This document shows, piece after piece, positions 53,304 through 61,168 of a stretch of DNA of 64,000 nt. Position numbers and translations under genes: made by a program. The notes beneath the pieces were generated by a model. That model saw only the letters and a program-made list of their open reading frames with translations. It ran no database searches and was not told the DNA's origin. How positions within the stretch are numbered: position 1 is the stretch's first letter; each line of letters starts with the position of its first letter. This DNA is from Alteromonadaceae bacterium BrNp21-10 (GTDB lineage Bacteria; Pseudomonadota; Gammaproteobacteria; Enterobacterales; Alteromonadaceae): assembly GCA_030418115.1 (NCBI GenBank), contig JAUHQD010000007.1, forward strand, positions 124,001 through 188,000, written 5' to 3'.

Positions 53304-53762
53304 ATGAACGATGAAACTCGTCAGAAAATTCGGGATACCTTAGTGCGATTATTGTCGCGCAGAGAACACAGTGTCTCTGAGCTGCAGTTTAAATTGCAGG
53401 GCAGGGGCTATGAGCAACAAGATATTGCCCCAGAAATTCAACGTTTAACCGACCTTAAATTACAAAGCGATCAACGCTTTGCCGAAGTTTTTGTGCGCAA
53501 TGCCATCAGCAAAGGCCAAGGAAAAATGCGTATTCAACAAGAATTAAAAGCCCATAACCTTCTTCCCCAGTGGGTGACTGCCGCTTTTGCAGAGCAAGAG
53601 ACCGACTGGTTCGAATTGGCCAAGCAAGTACACGATAAAAAATTTACTAGCGACAAAATGTTAAAAGCCAAGGAAAAGCACAAACATATACGCTATTTAC
53701 AGTACCGAGGTTTTGATACTGAACAAATTAAATATGCCTGCCGTTGCCGATATCAAGGTTAG
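53304..53762 (+). CDS. recX: RecA regulatory protein RecX
   Basis: A 152-residue RecX that binds the RecA filament and modulates strand exchange and SOS. Three-helix repeats are visible: ALVRLLSRREHSVSELQFKLQGRGY-type start (RREHS is diagnostic), DLKLQSDQRFAEVFVRNAISKGQGKMRIQQELKAH, and a C-terminal RYLQYRGFDTEQIKYA. recX usually sits just after recA; here the upstream gene is an unrelated GNAT gene in the opposite direction and no recA is present in the window. A weak ribosome binding site precedes the ATG. Confidence 0.93.
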   Translation: MNDETRQKIRDTLVRLLSRREHSVSELQFKLQGRGYEQQDIAPEIQRLTDLKLQSDQRFAEVFVRNAISKGQGKMRIQQELKAHNLLPQWVTAAFAEQETDWFELAKQVHDKKFTSDKMLKAKEKHKHIRYLQYRGFDTEQIKYACRCRYQG

Positions 53763-53935: not shown

Positions 53936-56900
53936 ATGAAATTTGTCCAAGGGTTTGGTCAACATATTAAGACATTGATGAGTCTGCTAACGCTAAGTTT
54001 ATTTAGTAGCCGTTGTTTTGCGGTTGGCGATATATTGGCTGAGCAAAGTGCAGAAACCCTGTCGATAGTTGCTATTGCTGTAGTCAGTATCATTCTGGTA
54101 TTTATCATTGTCATGTTAGTCATGCGTGCTTCGGTTAAAAAGCATCGCAATCTTTATCAGCAGCGTTCACAACAGCTGACAGAAACCCAATCCCTTATTG
54201 ATACCGCCAATTACGGCATCATTCATTTAGATAAAAATGGCCAAATTCTTTATACCAACCGCGCCGCGGGATTGATGCTAGGTAAAAAGCCGCAGCAACT
54301 ACAGCAACAGGCTTTTAGTGAAGTTGTCGATTTACAGCCCTTAGAGAAATTAACTCACGCTATTAATACCTTTGGTCACGGCATTCAGCAAAGTTATGTC
54401 GAAGCCGGTAAGCGCCATGTGCTGTTTAATGTTAATCCAGATAAAAATGACAATACCGACACCGCGATGATCATCACCTTAATGGATGTGTCCGATTTCC
54501 AACGTCGCAGCGACGAGCAACAAGCCAAAATAAGTTTGCAACAACAGTTGTTGGAGCAGAATAAATTGGGGCAAGTCTTCATTAATATTGCGGATAAACA
54601 GGTTGAGGTGAACTCGGTGTTTGCGCAAATGTTGCAGCAGTCGGTTGACGAAACCAATGGCCCGTTAGAGCAATTGCATAAATCAGTATGCAGTGAAGAT
54701 TGGCAAATTTGGCAAAATGCGTTGGAGCAAGGCAAGCAAGGTCAACCCTTTGAGTTGCGTTGCCGCTTTGCTACCCAAGCAGGGGATGTGCTAACCCAAA
54801 TTTATGGTTTTGTCAGTCAACAGGACGAAGATGGTAAGGCGCAGGCGTTACATCTTACCGTGCAGCCCTGCCAAGAAATCCACAGCCTGCAGCAACAAAA
54901 TGGTGCGCAACAACACATTATGCGTGGCCTATTAAGTGCTAATCCCAATGCGATGTACTATCTCGATCAACAAGGTAACTTGGCGGATTGTAATGGCTCC
55001 TTTGAAATGCTTTTTGGTACTAATTTGTTGTCGATTCAAGGACAGAACATTAACCAATTAGATTTTATTCCCGATGCCATTCGCCAAATGCATACCGTCG
55101 ATGAACTGATGCTCGCTAGCATGGGCGGCGGTATGTATAAGGAAATTGAACTTAAGGTTAATGATAGTGAGACTAAGTTATTGCGAGTGCGTTTGCAGTC
55201 TTATAAAAATGCCGAGGGTAAAAGCGCCGGTCTGATTGGCATTTTCGAAGATGTCACCGTGCAAAAACACATTGAACAACAGCTACAACAAACCGAACAA
55301 CGCTTTACCGATATGCTGGATCTAGCGCCGATGGCAGTGGCGGTTATCGATAAAGATGATCATATTATTCAGGCCAATCATGCGTTAACCGATCGTCTTG
55401 GTTTAACCGCTAAAGAAATGAAAAAAGGCTCATTTTATGAGTTGTTCACCGACCCTAAACAATCTGGTAAAGCGGCCAAATTACTCCATCAAACCGGTCG
55501 TGTGCGTGAGTTTGCAGCCATATTGCAAGGCAATAGCAAAGACCTTTGCCCTAGTGAACTGCATATTGATGTCTTTGATAAAGAGCAGCAAACCTACCTT
55601 TGTTGGATAGCCGATATCAGTAATCAACAATTCCATCAGGATAAATTTGAAAGCTTGTTACAACACAGCAGTATGCCAATGGCAGTATTTACCGATGAAG
55701 GCTTTAATCAGCTTAATCCCGCTGCTTGTGAGTTCTTTGATATTGAAGACGAAGATGATTTGTTTGGCTTGTTCCCTTATTCCGAACAACTGAATGGTAA
55801 CGCCGACGCTCAGGAAACCCTGCAGCAGAAAATCAAACAAGTTAAACGAGACGGCAAGGCACTGAGCTTAGTGTGGCAACATAAGCACAAAGAACAGTTT
55901 TTACCTTGTCAGGCGACTTATGTGCCGATGTACAAAGGTAAAGAACTGGATTCTATTTTGTGTGTGTGGATGGATATGCGCGCCATTAATCAGGCCGCTG
56001 AAGAGCGTATGCAAGCGGTTAACTTGCAACAAGCCGCTGAACGTACCGCCGCTGAAAAACAACAGTTGCTGGAAAGTAGCCAAGACCAACTCGCCAATAA
56101 GGTGAAAAGTCTCAGTGAAACCGAAAATCGATTGCAAGAGGCACAACAAGATCTCAGTCAAAAACAAAGCAAGATTAGCGACTTGCAACAAGCGCATCAA
56201 AATGTCACCGACAACCTGCAACAACTACAACAGGACTATGCGAAAAGCCGTTCCTTGTTAGAAGACAGTCAGCAAAGTAATGCTGAACTGGAAGAGCAAT
56301 TACAACAGTCCAGTGTCAAGGTCGGTGCGCTAGAGAAACAACGCTCGCAAATTGCCGATGCCCTGCAAAATAGTGAGCAGCAGTATCAACGTTCTCAAGA
56401 ACAGCTGGCCGAAAGTGAAGAAACCAGCGAACGATTACAGCAAGAGCAGTTACAGCAGCAACAAGAACTATCAGAGTTCGTGGCGCAGATTGATTCCTTA
56501 AAACAATCCATTCAGCAAAAAGATCAACAGATATTGCAAGTTAGCGATCATATCGAAGGCTTACAAGCGCAGTTGTTGAGTTCGGGCCAAGCTGGCGAAA
56601 AACTCCGTGAGCAATTAGTTAATCAACGCAAAGCCAGTGAAAAAGCGGAATTACAGCGTCGTGAATTAGAACTGGCTTGTAACAAGGCGCAGTCGGAATT
56701 GTCGGGTAAAGCCCAGCATATTGAACATCTGCAATTGGAAATGGACAAGTTTGAGCAAATGTCCAATCAGCAAAAAGGCGATATGGAGCAGCAGCAAAAG
56801 TTATTGCAACAAGAGCTAGAAGCTAAGCAACAGCAATTGCAGGAAACCACCAAAACATTGGATGAAACCAAGCGTCAGGCAGAGGCCGATAAACAAGTTA

Positions 56901-58459
56901 AATTTGAACAACAACAACGTTTGCAGCAGTTGAAAGACGAACTACAAGACGTTGAAAAGCGTACCAATGAAGAACAACAGCGTATTGCCCAAAGTAGTCA
57001 GCAATGGCAAGAACAGCAGCAGGCCTTGCAACAGGAGTTAGAAGCGAAGCAGCAACAATTGCAGGAAACCCAGCAAATTCTCAACGAATCTAAGCAGCAG
57101 ACGGAAGAAGAAAAAGCCGAGAAGGCCAGACAAACAGAAAAATTTGAGCAACTTAAAAATGAATTGGCAGAAGTGGAGCGTCGTACTGCACAGAAACAAC
57201 AAGAGATGTCTCAGTCTGATCAGCAACGTCAACAGCAACAACAGGCTTTACAACAAGAGTTAGAAGCCAAGCAGCAACAATTGTTACAAACCCAGCAAAA
57301 ACTGGATGAAACCCAACGCCAGTCAGACGCTGATAGAGCAGAACGTGAACAACAGCAGCAAAAACTGGAACTACTCAAAGTAGAATTGTCTGGAGTTGAA
57401 CAACGTTCGCAAATTCAGCAAGAAATGATGCAAGGTAGTGACGAGCAGTGGCGTCAGAATCATGAAGAAATTGAGGCGCAGAAGAAACAATTGCAACAGG
57501 CATTAATTGAAGCCGAAAATCAAAATGCTGCAATGCAACAACAATTGCAGGGTAGCTTAGTGGAACTACAAAAAGCCGAGAATCAGGTATCCGAAACCCA
57601 AACCGGTGAGCAAAAGCTACAACAAGAACTGGAATTGGCACGTAAGCAAGCTGAAGAATTACAGGAGTTATTGTTGCAGCGTGAGCAGCAAGAATCGAAA
57701 TTACAGAACCAGTTGAATGAGCAACAAAAAACATTATTGGAAAGTGAGAGCAATATATCCGCTCTCGAAGGTCAGCAAAAACAACTCACTGAACAATTAC
57801 ATGCGGTGCAACAAGAGTATTCCCATACCAAGCAAGACTTAAGTACTCAGGACAGTAATCAATCCGAATTAGCCGAACAGCTAAAACGTCTTGAGTCGGA
57901 ATTAAAAGACAACCAGCAACAACTCGATAGTAAAGAACAAGCCTTACAGGACGCACAAAAACAATTACAAACCAGTCAGCAGCAAATAGAGCAGCAAGAA
58001 AAAGCCCTTGTAGATGCCCACAAGGAAGAGTTACAACAAGCTAAAATCGCCGCTGAAAAGGCACCGCCAGCGGAGAAAAAACCAATACCAGATTTTGCCA
58101 CATTAGACATGCCACAAGATCCAGAAGTGTGGTTTGCGTTGTTACCTTATCTGCAAAACAATCCCAGCTCAGCCCCCTTGCCGGTGGAATTAAACGCCTT
58201 AATGGATGAATTAGAGCAAGCGACGCAAATTACCGATGAAGCGGTGCAAGCGGAAGACGCGGGTAAAATATTGGTTAACTCAAGAAAACTGGTCAAAATC
58301 GCCACCAAAATCGCCTCTGAACCCTTGACTGACTTAAGCACTCAGCTAGAAGCGGCGGTTAAGCAAGGGCAGGTGGACAGCATCTCCATCTTCTGGCCAA
58401 ACATGAAAAAATCTCTACTTATCACATTGCGGGTAATTTATTCCCATTTGCAGGGCTAA
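53936..58459 (+). CDS. Giant membrane protein with PAS domains, long coiled coil and HPt-like tail
   Basis: A 1507-residue protein. A signal-like first segment (about 10-30) and a membrane helix (about 43-65) lead to PAS-like domains at about 82-185, 325-440, 455-560 and 570-685 (NYGIIHLDKNGQILYTN, NAMYYLDQQGNLADCN, MAVAVIDKDDHIIQAN, MPMAVFTDEGFNQLNP), with a weaker one around 200-320. Residues about 690-1370 are a Gln/Glu-rich coiled coil with three tandem 74-residue repeats. The last 130 residues look like an HPt four-helix domain (PQDPEVWFALLPYLQNN ... LVKIATKIASEPLTDLSTQLEAAV), but the phospho-His position of HxxKG is not apparent. No kinase or cyclase domain is present. Possibly a sensor-scaffold; function unknown. 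Confidence 0.85.
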   Translation: MKFVQGFGQHIKTLMSLLTLSLFSSRCFAVGDILAEQSAETLSIVAIAVVSIILVFIIVMLVMRASVKKHRNLYQQRSQQLTETQSLIDTANYGIIHLDKNGQILYTNRAAGLMLGKKPQQLQQQAFSEVVDLQPLEKLTHAINTFGHGIQQSYVEAGKRHVLFNVNPDKNDNTDTAMIITLMDVSDFQRRSDEQQAKISLQQQLLEQNKLGQVFINIADKQVEVNSVFAQMLQQSVDETNGPLEQLHKSVCSEDWQIWQNALEQGKQGQPFELRCRFATQAGDVLTQIYGFVSQQDEDGKAQALHLTVQPCQEIHSLQQQNGAQQHIMRGLLSANPNAMYYLDQQGNLADCNGSFEMLFGTNLLSIQGQNINQLDFIPDAIRQMHTVDELMLASMGGGMYKEIELKVNDSETKLLRVRLQSYKNAEGKSAGLIGIFEDVTVQKHIEQQLQQTEQRFTDMLDLAPMAVAVIDKDDHIIQANHALTDRLGLTAKEMKKGSFYELFTDPKQSGKAAKLLHQTGRVREFAAILQGNSKDLCPSELHIDVFDKEQQTYLCWIADISNQQFHQDKFESLLQHSSMPMAVFTDEGFNQLNPAACEFFDIEDEDDLFGLFPYSEQLNGNADAQETLQQKIKQVKRDGKALSLVWQHKHKEQFLPCQATYVPMYKGKELDSILCVWMDMRAINQAAEERMQAVNLQQAAERTAAEKQQLLESSQDQLANKVKSLSETENRLQEAQQDLSQKQSKISDLQQAHQNVTDNLQQLQQDYAKSRSLLEDSQQSNAELEEQLQQSSVKVGALEKQRSQIADALQNSEQQYQRSQEQLAESEETSERLQQEQLQQQQELSEFVAQIDSLKQSIQQKDQQILQVSDHIEGLQAQLLSSGQAGEKLREQLVNQRKASEKAELQRRELELACNKAQSELSGKAQHIEHLQLEMDKFEQMSNQQKGDMEQQQKLLQQELEAKQQQLQETTKTLDETKRQAEADKQVKFEQQQRLQQLKDELQDVEKRTNEEQQRIAQSSQQWQEQQQALQQELEAKQQQLQETQQILNESKQQTEEEKAEKARQTEKFEQLKNELAEVERRTAQKQQEMSQSDQQRQQQQQALQQELEAKQQQLLQTQQKLDETQRQSDADRAEREQQQQKLELLKVELSGVEQRSQIQQEMMQGSDEQWRQNHEEIEAQKKQLQQALIEAENQNAAMQQQLQGSLVELQKAENQVSETQTGEQKLQQELELARKQAEELQELLLQREQQESKLQNQLNEQQKTLLESESNISALEGQQKQLTEQLHAVQQEYSHTKQDLSTQDSNQSELAEQLKRLESELKDNQQQLDSKEQALQDAQKQLQTSQQQIEQQEKALVDAHKEELQQAKIAAEKAPPAEKKPIPDFATLDMPQDPEVWFALLPYLQNNPSSAPLPVELNALMDELEQATQITDEAVQAEDAGKILVNSRKLVKIATKIASEPLTDLSTQLEAAVKQGQVDSISIFWPNMKKSLLITLRVIYSHLQG
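56807..57472 (+). repeat. Three tandem 222-base coding repeats
   Basis: Units start at 56807, 57029 and 57251, exactly 222 bases (74 codons) apart, each beginning with codons for QQELEAKQQQL. A diverged fourth unit starts near 57461. The repeats lie in the coiled-coil part of the 1507-residue protein. Confidence 0.85.
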
Positions 58460-58570: not shown

Positions 58571-61168
58571 ATGATCAACACCACCGCTAAACTCAGAGCC
58601 GCCTTCTTAGACTTTTTTGCCGAGCGAGGTCACCAAAAAGTGTCCAGTAGTTCACTTGTGCCTACCGATGATCCCACATTGCTATTCACCAATGCCGGTA
58701 TGAATCAGTTTAAAGATGTGTTTCTTGGTGCTGAAAAGCGAGCTTATACCAAAGCGACCTCGTCGCAGCGTTGTGTGCGTGCCGGTGGTAAGCATAATGA
58801 TTTAGAGAATGTCGGTTATACCGCACGTCATCATACGTTTTTTGAAATGCTGGGTAATTTCAGCTTTGGTGACTATTTCAAAACCGAAGCCATTAAATAT
58901 GCGTGGGAATTTCTGACGGTTAACCTCGGCTTACCTGCCGAAAAATTATTGGTCACTGTATATTCCGAAGATGATGAAGCTTTTGATATCTGGGCCAAAG
59001 AAATTGGTGTACCTGAAGATAAAATTATTCGTATCAGCACTTCTGATAACTTCTGGTCAATGGGCGACACCGGACCTTGTGGACCTTGTTCAGAAATTTT
59101 TTATGATCACGGTGAACATATTTGGGGTGGGCCTCCTGGCTCGCCAGAAGAAGACGGTGACCGTTTCATCGAAATCTGGAATCTGGTATTCATGCAGTTC
59201 AATCGGCAAGCAGATGGCACCATGGAGCCTTTGCCTAAGCCTTCAATAGATACCGGTATGGGCTTAGAGCGTATTGCCGCCATTTTGCAAAATGTGCACA
59301 GCAATTATGAAATAGATTTGTTCCAACAATTAATTAAAGATGCCGCCACTATTGTGGGGACGGATGACTTACAAAACAAATCCCTGCGAGTGATTGCCGA
59401 CCATATCCGTTCTTGTGGCTTTTTGATTTGTGATGGTGTGATGCCGTCTAATGAAGGCCGCGGTTATGTGCTACGTCGTATTATTCGCCGCGCGGTGCGT
59501 CACGGTTACCAATTGGGTGCCGATGATATTTTCTTCTACAAATTATTTTCCTCCTTGGTGACGCAAATGGGTGAGGCTTATCCAGAATTAGCCGAGCATC
59601 AAGCAACGGTTGAAAAAGTCTTAAGGGTTGAGGAAGAGCAATTTTCACGCACGCTAGAGCGCGGTATGGCGTTATTGAATGAAGCCATCGAAGCTTTGGA
59701 AGGTGATACCTTACCTGGTGAAACTGTATTTAAACTTTATGATACATACGGTTTCCCTGCTGATCTGACCAACGATGTTGCTCGTGAGAAAAATATTAAA
59801 ATTGATGAAGCCGGTTTTGAAGCGGCAATGCAACAGCAGCGCAAACGCGCCCAGCAAGCCAGTAGTTTTGGTGCCGAATATAATGCCAGTATCAAATCTG
59901 AACAGGTGTCTACTTTTAGCGGCTATGATCGCGAACAAGATAATGCACGCATTGTTGAATTATTCCTTGAAGGTCAGTCGGTTCAATCAGTGCCTGCCGG
60001 TAGTGATGCGATTGTAGTACTCGACAACACCCCATTCTATGCCGAATCCGGTGGTCAAGTTGGTGACAGCGGACGATTAGTGGTTGCTGATGGTGAGTTT
60101 GTTGTGGCCGATACCTTAAAGCTCGGTAATGCCATTGCTCATCACGGTAACGCACAGGTGGCGATTAATGTTGGTGATACGGTGGATGCCCAAGTGGATC
60201 ACGCTCGTCGTCAGTCCATACGTTTAAATCATACGGCTACCCACTTATTACATGCTGCGTTGAAGCTGATTTTAGGTGACCACGTGAATCAGAAAGGTTC
60301 ATTGGTGGACGCAGAGCGTTTACGTTTTGACTTCTCGCATTTTGAAGCCATCAGCAAAGAGCAACTTGCGAGTATTGAACAACGGGTGAATGATGAAATC
60401 CGTCTTAACCATGTGTTAAATACACAGCTGATGGAATTAGAAGCCGCCAAAGAATCCGGTGCCCAAGCGTTATTTGGTGAAAAATACGATAGCGAAGTAC
60501 GGGTAATTTCTATGGGCGATTTCTCTGTAGAACTTTGTGGTGGTACCCATGTTAAACAAACTGGTGATATTGGTTTGCTGCGCATTATTACAGAAAGCGG
60601 TATCGCTTCTGGGGTAAGACGTATTGAAGCAGTTAGCGGCCAAGCTGCGTTGGCTTATAGCCAACAGCAAAGTGCTCAATTGAGCTCAGTGGCGGGTATG
60701 CTTAAATCCGATCACAGCCATTTGCAAGAACGGGTTGTACAAGTAATCGAGCAAACTAAATCTCTTGAAAAAGAAATTGAGCAATTAAAGCAAAAAATGG
60801 CTCAGCAAGCCGGATCTGACATCGTTAAGCAGGCCATTGAAATAAATGGTGTTAAAGTCCTGTCTGCTAATTTAGAGGGGGTTGAAGCTAAATCCTTGCG
60901 TGATATGGTGGACGACCTGAAGAATAAATTAGGCAGCGGCATTGTTGTATTAGGTGTTGCCGATGGCGATAAAGTCAGTTTGATCGCCGGAGTGACCAAA
61001 GATTTAATCGGCAAAGTAAAAGCCGGTGAATTGGTTAATTTTGTTGCCCAACAGGTGGGCGGTAAAGGCGGTGGACGACCTGATATGGCTCAAGCCGGTG
61101 GTACACAGCCTCAAAATTTGGAAACCGCAATTACCTCTGTGTCGACATGGTTGCAAGATAAGCTATAA
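58571..61168 (+). CDS. alaS: Alanyl-tRNA synthetase
   Basis: An 865-residue synthetase that charges tRNA-Ala and edits mischarged Ser and Gly. Catalytic domain: [58 protein letters not shown] and [12 protein letters not shown]. The editing domain has H554-X3-H558 ([11 protein letters not shown]) and C656 in CGGTH as zinc ligands. The C-terminal oligomerisation part ends [14 protein letters not shown]. Length is close to E. coli's (876). The order alaS, csrA, tRNA-Ser, tRNA-Arg is the usual gammaproteobacterial arrangement. Confidence 0.97.

Follow-up and report, generated by a model that had tools for sequence, protein, structure and literature searches.

A PAS and coiled-coil protein of the Alteromonadaceae whose HPt-like tail lacks the phosphorylatable histidine

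Within a stretch of 64,000 nucleotides of its 4.2-Mb genome (contig JAUHQD010000007.1; the whole stretch is called the window below), Alteromonadaceae bacterium BrNp21-10 encodes a protein of 1507 residues in which a membrane anchor and five PAS domains are followed by a long Gln-rich coiled coil and by a C-terminal four-helix domain that resembles histidine phosphotransfer (HPt) domains and has arginine where these have the phosphorylatable histidine. The reading frame, taken from a program-made list of open reading frames, is confirmed as real, and uninterrupted frames of 1496–1801 residues are found at 44 of 45 named loci in related genomes, the 45th (L082) ending at a contig end. The analysis establishes the order of the modules, the loss of the phospho-His, the lack of any detected kinase or receiver domain, the strong constraint on all parts of the protein and the variation in whole units of the repeat region of a conserved coil. 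Judged from the sequences, a dead HPt-like tail and a conserved coil occur throughout the family, which makes the observation stronger than a reading of one sequence could reveal. The architecture is well supported, and the output of the protein is what we infer; an earlier, sequence-only reading of the gene is, taken as a whole, partly supported. Retention of a pseudo-HPt under purifying selection across an orthologous family makes the purpose of a dead phosphotransfer domain directly testable in marine bacteria, and coils of 3 to 7 units provide a natural length series for asking whether the length of the rod matters.

Assignment of the tail draws on both structure prediction and profile comparison. 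An AlphaFold2 (AF2) model of residues 1364–1507, built from 39 aligned rows (the window protein and 38 of the 45 named loci), has a predicted local distance difference test score (pLDDT) of 89.6 and contains four long helices (52–75, 79–96, 99–113 and 117–143 in model numbering) with short helices ahead of them; a Pro-containing linker joins the bundle to the coil. The first nine Foldseek ranks for this model are all HPt domains (best expectation value, E, 6.8e-3; probability 0.99–1.00), and realignment with VIA gives Z 15.3 for the HPt of a Shewanella hybrid kinase (3myf) and 14.8 for Pseudomonas aeruginosa HptB (7c1i), with root mean square deviations of 2.1–2.5 Å over 112 aligned residues. 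Caution is needed in reading these values, as helical bundles may attain Z 13–14 through a common arrangement alone; unrelated bundles, among them a receptor-fusion bundle, score up to Z 11.4 against the tail model. At the level of profiles, hhalign aligns the tail with a profile of the genome's own 11 HPt domains at E 1.4e-6 and a score of 39.1, whereas 60 column-shuffled HPt profiles score at most 12.7 and a reversed profile 19.2 (a further decoy, the coil from residue 1290, with a probability of 82.6, shares residues with the tail profile and is discounted). With E values up to 1 allowed, the Pfam Hpt model (PF01627) matches nine of the 39 tails, the best at 7.9e-7. The tail thus appears HPt-like in both predicted fold and sequence profile.

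The same profile alignment places R1450 on the phospho-His of HPt domains. Over 46 rows, the window protein and the 45 named loci, this column holds Arg in 39, Lys in 3, Ala in 2, Gln in 1 and His in 1, so that it is basic in 42. Nine extra proteins (L047, L048 and L142–L148), which were chosen for odd length, low score or a second copy and stand outside the 46-row count, bring the tally over 55 rows to 43 Arg, 5 Lys, 2 Ala, 2 Gln, 2 His and 1 Glu. The surrounding motif has gone as well: HxxKG is the consensus of the 11 HPts of the same genome, and the 46 rows hold no Lys at position +3 and a single Gly at +4. A quick tree built from 45 proteins requires seven or more changes at the column; the site has therefore not become fixed, but a basic residue prevails in it. 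Hpt domains without the histidine are rare: a published survey puts them at 0.9% (90 of 10,312), and its authors state that phosphotransfer has no way around the histidine (PMC12632262). The sequence-only reading had described a tail resembling HPt with no apparent phosphorylatable histidine, to be given up if the tail proved to have no HPt similarity or an intact HxxKG histidine; the similarity is present in profile and model, and R1450 occupies the histidine column.

The tail therefore shares a four-helix bundle and profile similarity with the HPt domains (PF01627, HptB 7c1i, Shewanella 3myf), but differs from them in having neither phospho-His nor HxxKG, in following a long coil rather than a receiver, and in the placement of its conserved residues. 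Conservation is highest in the first helix (W1399, F1400, L1402, L1403, P1404, L1406, Q1407) and around the last one (D1481, I1485, W1487, P1488, R1499, V1500, Y1502), while residues 1447, 1448, 1454 and 1457, near R1450, are variable. Although R1450 is basic in 42 of the 46 rows, this pattern leans toward a partner other than one engaged by canonical receiver docking.

In the window protein no HisKA, HATPase_c or Response_reg domain was found by Pfam at E 1, NCBIfam kinase models matched only PAS stretches and far below their cut-offs, and six relatives of odd length have PAS domains with no kinase, ATPase or receiver domain (E 0.01), all in line with the earlier statement that there is no kinase. 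As no catalytic domain was detected and the phospho-His is missing, a phosphorelay output is unlikely. The accompanying proposal, that the protein is a hybrid kinase whose core was replaced by a coil, is not supported. A single-sequence search of 59 genomes and a profile search of 40 gave no homologue that has a kinase core, and in both searches the matches outside the family were confined to the PAS region. The seven such matches of the 40-genome search carry HisKA/HATPase in six cases and GGDEF/EAL in one, in a domain scan for which some frames were ended by the locus end and the G019 and G049 matches of the 59-genome search were left out. The nearest kinase-bearing proteins share PAS columns only, the best spanning at most profile columns 72–500 of 721.

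The coil is the largest module, and its hydrophobic residues recur with a period of 3.51 over some 690 residues (686–1376); Gln accounts for 25.9% of the 657 coil residues measured, and the description of a 680-residue Gln-rich coiled coil is thereby confirmed. In 45 full-length proteins (the window protein included, and L082, cut by a contig end, counted among the 46 rows only), mean identity to the window protein is 50–56% for the coil, 50% for the tail, 46% for PAS4 (residues 455–565), 52% for PAS5 (residues 571–685) and 22–29% for PAS1–3, against composition-shuffled expectations of 11.7% for the coil, 7% for the tail, 6% for PAS4–5 and 6.4% for PAS1–3. The coil is not filler, because it is conserved at 50–56% where PAS1–3 reach 22–29% and because its repeat part varies in units of about 74 residues. 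Self-comparison of the window coil scores 221 at a lag of 74 and 109 at a lag of 148, and among the 45 proteins the repeat region measures 222 residues in 22, 219 in 5, 226 in 1, 296 in 1, 367–371 in 12, 444 in 2, 513 in 1 and 276 in 1. It thus falls within 5 residues of 3, 4, 5, 6 or 7 times 74 in all except the last of these (L085). The N-terminal part of the coil has 265 residues in 35 of the proteins, 272 in 8, 279 in 1 and 264 in 1, and the stretch aligned to the final 122 residues has 122 in all 45. The unit class, taken as the length of the repeat region divided by 74 to the nearest whole number (so that L085 falls into class 4), requires eight or more changes on the quick tree.

Conservation within the heptads is highest at a and d (0.81 and 0.83), lower at e and g (0.69 and 0.67) and lowest at b, c and f (0.48–0.52). 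A constrained pairing face with a less constrained outside suggests a rod-like coil, which also contains stutter-like phase shifts. The rise per residue of a helix is 0.1485 nm; on that basis residues 686–1385 would, as a continuous helix, be about 104 nm long in the window protein and 103–147 nm long across the 45 proteins. The coil may accordingly be pictured as a rod of about 100 nm, a prediction that presupposes continuity.

Several individual coils depart from the common form. In L085, from Bowmanella sp. JS7-9, the repeat lag is 92 instead of 74, and its region of 276 residues hence comprises three copies. L091, a Glaciecola sequence derived from a metagenome-assembled genome, has a very strong self-match (score 708) at lag 222, or 3 x 74, over coil residues of about 985–1430, apparently a recent tandem duplication if not an assembly error. 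In L144 (G725; 1292 residues) most of the 74-residue repeat region has seemingly been lost by eye, with the PAS array and tail kept.

Named loci come from Alteromonas, Glaciecola, Paraglaciecola, Aliiglaciecola, Bowmanella, Aestuariibacter, Salinimonas, Agaribacter, Lacimicrobium, Neptunicella and unclassified Alteromonadaceae. With no more than ten candidates scored per genome at the family, order and class levels (28 in the 40-genome search), the tail profile matched 62 of the 395 genomes sampled from the window's family, in 13 of 52 genera. At class level (E 1e-5) it matched 2 of 369 genomes, both inside the family and none outside; at order level (E 0.001) it matched 21 of 394, twelve in the family and nine outside, the latter all weak (E 1.8e-6 to 8.3e-4). 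A search of genome contigs with the N terminus of the window protein confirmed no close relative, and the tail profile gave 45. A query with the N terminus at E 1e-10 matched 16 of 59 relatives, of which eleven are full-length members, the window protein included, and five cover 140–349 residues of the PAS region only. Two weak matches among the twelve in-family ones at order level (G176 and G251) were set aside as non-members by length and score, and that of G176 (L049) is without the PAS-coil layout by eye. A literature search, made mostly without subscription journals, found no publication that deals with this protein family.

Purifying selection seems to act on every module. The ratio of nonsynonymous to synonymous substitution (dN/dS) is 0.029–0.086 over six regions in L092/L093, the least saturated of six pairs, and 0.012–0.094 in three other pairs; saturation affects two of the six pairs as a whole and a third in one region, and as synonymous distances are near or above 1 the values other than those of L092/L093 are rough.

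A tentative proposal for function, held with somewhat less than even confidence, is that of a membrane-anchored, probably homodimeric PAS sensor or scaffold with a non-catalytic output, which would work as a tethered adaptor and present the pseudo-HPt as a docking domain some 100 nm from the membrane. The five PAS domains, presumably cytoplasmic, would sense an intracellular cue, either a ligand or redox state, and dimerise; the coil would pair in parallel into a dimeric rod, about 104 nm long here and as much as about 147 nm in relatives, and hold the tail far from the membrane; and the tail would bind a partner, be it a receiver or some other protein, with no transfer of phosphate. A change in PAS state might then alter clustering, localisation or the occupancy of the partner. 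The simplest explanation for a rod whose pairing face is constrained and whose outside is freer, and which carries sensors with an anchor at one end and a conserved globular domain at the opposite end, is a tether that presents a binding domain. The protein may act as an adaptor or scaffold after the manner of FrzS rather than as a kinase. The "sensor scaffold" part of the sequence-only reading is kept in this form as the best guess, whereas its cytoskeleton-like part was not borne out. FrzS and AglZ of Myxococcus xanthus likewise combine a two-component domain that lacks its phosphorylation site with a coiled coil, and for FrzS, the nearest logic so far described, a receiver without the phosphorylation Asp, a coil of 258 residues and a tail are reported, all needed for dynamic localisation (PMC1974792). 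The resemblance is one of layout: in FrzS and AglZ the dead module is an N-terminal pseudo-receiver, whereas the window protein has a pseudo-HPt, a transmembrane anchor and five PAS domains. Pfam finds no Response_reg match, and hence no pseudo-receiver, in the window protein, and its N-terminal folds are PAS.

A number of observations weigh against this account. The tail of the window protein has no Pfam Hpt match of its own even at E 1, a whole-genome Hpt search returned 11 matches without this gene among them, and the Foldseek matches of the tail are all weaker than E 0.001, so that its membership among HPt domains rests on profiles and a model and not on a single-sequence Pfam match. (In a search of the tail profile against the sequences of the Protein Data Bank, a designed protein was best at E 0.066 and 3myf fourth at E 0.22, neither of them significant.) A histidine does stand at the phospho-His column in L079 (Aestuariibacter halophilus) and in the divergent L048, both without the +3 Lys and +4 Gly, and the +4 residue is variable across the family (K, Q, A, H, S and others), a variability that speaks against canonical docking to a receiver. 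Recruitment of the 45 named loci was through two tail motifs, so that conservation of motif and tail is partly by construction and a homologue with neither motif would escape; the 11 rows found by the N terminus alone carry the same invariant tail-motif residues. For the rod, the heptad phase was fitted to the hydrophobic residues of the window protein, which builds the a/d figure in part into the result and leaves the contrast of e/g with b/c/f free of it; the C-terminal part of the coil with its linker ranges over 208–216 residues, not in heptads; and both continuity and oligomeric state are assumed. The gene neighbourhood is not conserved, and no partner can therefore be read from it.

Two narrower possibilities fit within the same architecture, each of them unlikely in its specific form. 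One is a lineage-specific "long-reach" signalling tether, in which an inner-membrane PAS sensor would extend the dead HPt, with His changed to Arg, some 100–150 nm into the cell, there to capture receivers or another partner at a set distance, with the gain or loss of 74-residue units tuning the length. The other, which seems to us no more probable than the first, is that the tail docks on a receiver with Arg or Lys in the acidic pocket and so traps or reads it, giving a phosphorylation-dependent sequestering of a response regulator or of the receiver of a hybrid kinase. The HPt-like fold with R1450 in mid-helix and the basic residue in 42 of the 46 rows would suit such docking, and the 11 other HPt matches in the genome imply phosphorelays to act upon. 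DivL is a precedent for it. A kinase module is reported to have been reused to read the phosphorylation of a regulator (PMC4211667). Against docking of this kind, however, position +4 is variable with Gly in 1 of 46, residues 1447, 1448, 1454 and 1457 vary, and the best-conserved residues fall in W1399–Q1407, D1481–P1488 and R1499–Y1502.

Less probable again is a structural filament or cytoskeletal element, in which the coil would polymerise and the PAS domains and tail regulate assembly. A long conserved coil with stutter-like phase shifts recalls crescentin, which itself has a stutter, and weak crescentin-rod matches (19–38 bits against a cut-off of 100) occur in four of the six odd-length relatives, one of which group also gave a sub-cutoff intermediate-filament match. 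The window protein, by contrast, is membrane-anchored with globular domains at both ends and has no Rod_CreS or other crescentin or filament match in Pfam; positions b, c and f are the least conserved of the heptad; and charge periodicity over 8–120 residues does not rise above shuffles in the coil, in a simple and indirect test. The filament reading is disfavoured.

The idea that the protein is a decayed hybrid kinase, its PAS and HPt parts being relics and its coil having grown in place of the kinase core, is quite improbable and as a relic already disfavoured. The combination of PAS and HPt is typical of hybrid kinases (PAS-HisKA-HATPase-REC-HPt), which have a PAS array and an HPt-like end in common with the window protein; the best matches of the tail model include the hybrid-kinase HPt 3myf, and two of the nine weak matches outside the family (L054 and L055) look by eye like true hybrid-kinase HPts. 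Constraint on all modules is nevertheless strong, kinase core and receiver were not found in the window protein, and no member with a kinase core is among those examined, the PAS-only span of the kinase-bearing matches given above pointing the same way. Active phosphotransfer through another residue such as His1504 (present in 37 of 45 proteins), or in the few members with a column His (L079, L048), is very improbable, since His1504 sits at the end of the last helix, outside the HPt site, and is Asn in 6 and Gln in 2 of the 45, and the +3 Lys and +4 Gly are missing in L079 and L048 too.

Replacement of a FimV/HubP landmark was considered separately and rejected: FimV_core is encoded elsewhere in 35/35 f1 genomes, with or without a window-type gene, and an NCBIfam scan finds no FimV core domain in the window protein.

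The remaining modules are listed with the others in Table 1. At the N terminus, hydropathy is maximal at residues 44–62, and AF2 predicts helices at 2–22, 25–36 and 39–90, the transmembrane segment lying inside the long helix. A cleavage-like FA before VGD and a K/R-rich flank after the transmembrane helix, both read by eye, accompany a topology in which the PAS side is predicted to be cytoplasmic. The AF2 model of residues 1–723 (39 rows; mean pLDDT 85.7) has a predicted template modelling score of 0.48, so that single domains are reliable and their mutual placement is not. Where the sequence-only reading counted four or more PAS domains, this model shows five PAS-type folds, with boundaries drawn by us from its secondary structure; Pfam PAS models match three to four stretches, four models being over the cut-off, and in NCBIfam a PAS "sensory box" model is over the cut-off, with kinase, SMC-like and other matches all below theirs. 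The top Foldseek matches of the N-terminal model, PpsR (4hh2), DosP and FixL, likewise have tandem PAS domains linked by helices; unlike them, the window protein shows by Pfam neither a DNA-binding nor an EAL or kinase output.

Table 1. Features of the gene and its product, in window positions
Feature	Positions	Strand	Basis
Whole gene, 1507 residues (signal/transmembrane anchor, five PAS, long coiled coil, pseudo-HPt)	53936..58459	+	list of open reading frames
Signal-like helix (residues 1-29) and predicted transmembrane helix (about 41-66), residues 1-70	53936..54145	+	hydropathy, AF2 model
PAS1 (residues 94-184)	54215..54487	+	AF2 model; Pfam PAS
PAS2 (residues 212-311)	54569..54868	+	AF2 model; Pfam PAS_3 at 24.7 bits, slightly below the 25.6 cut-off
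PAS3 (residues 339-439)	54950..55252	+	AF2 model; Pfam PAS_4
PAS4 (residues 467-560), well conserved	55334..55615	+	Pfam, AF2 model, conservation
PAS5 (residues 582-680), well conserved	55679..55975	+	AF2 model, conservation
Gln-rich coiled coil (residues 686-1376)	55991..58063	+	heptad-like period 3.51; conservation, lengths
Three tandem 74-residue coil units (residues 951-1172)	56786..57451	+	self-comparison
Predicted pseudo-HPt four-helix bundle (residues 1396-1507)	58121..58456	+	AF2 pLDDT 90-98 over residues 1384-1503; Foldseek/VIA; hhalign
Arg1450 codon, column of the HPt phospho-His	58283..58285	+	hhalign alignment, column counts

Three cysteines of the conserved PAS domains stand out: Cys676 (PAS5) is present in 45 of 45 proteins, Cys658 (PAS5) in 42 and Cys556 (PAS4) in 41. 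Cys658 and Cys676 lie on neighbouring strands of the AF2 model, directly ahead of the coil, and could possibly form a redox switch there, which is only a hint.

The position between recX (53304–53762) and alaS (58571–61168), both assigned by Pfam, is true of the window gene, with csrA and a tRNA-Ser/Arg/Arg cluster downstream, but not of the family: this order occurs at 2 of 46 loci, the window and L085, a count in which the lack of alaS is weak for L067, L081 and L082, where flanks are short. L056 (Neptunicella marina) has recX next to the gene and no alaS within 10 kb. Neighbour clusters are common to close relatives only and differ between groups. Ten of the 22 immediate neighbours at 11 loci were scanned and comprise a histidine kinase, carboxypeptidase-like, GNAT, MMPL, AcrB-type, MarR and FlhB-like proteins, a LuxR-type regulator, a hydrolase and one protein without a match. 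The Glaciecola loci L089 and L091–L094 have the same upstream neighbour cluster, whose scanned representative (L089) is the histidine kinase; the Glaciecola-labelled L096, L098 and L099 have other neighbours.

Variation in copy number and length is also seen. Some genomes hold a second, shorter member (1549 and 1062 residues in G388; 1644 and 902 in G669), and L142, L048, L047 and L143 are divergent forms of 902–1232 residues in which fewer PAS domains are detected and the coil is shorter but the tail is the same, L142 and L048 sharing a genome with a long form. In the single-contig genome of L146 (G642) the gene appears as two open frames that overlap, as would result from a broken gene or from an error in sequencing.

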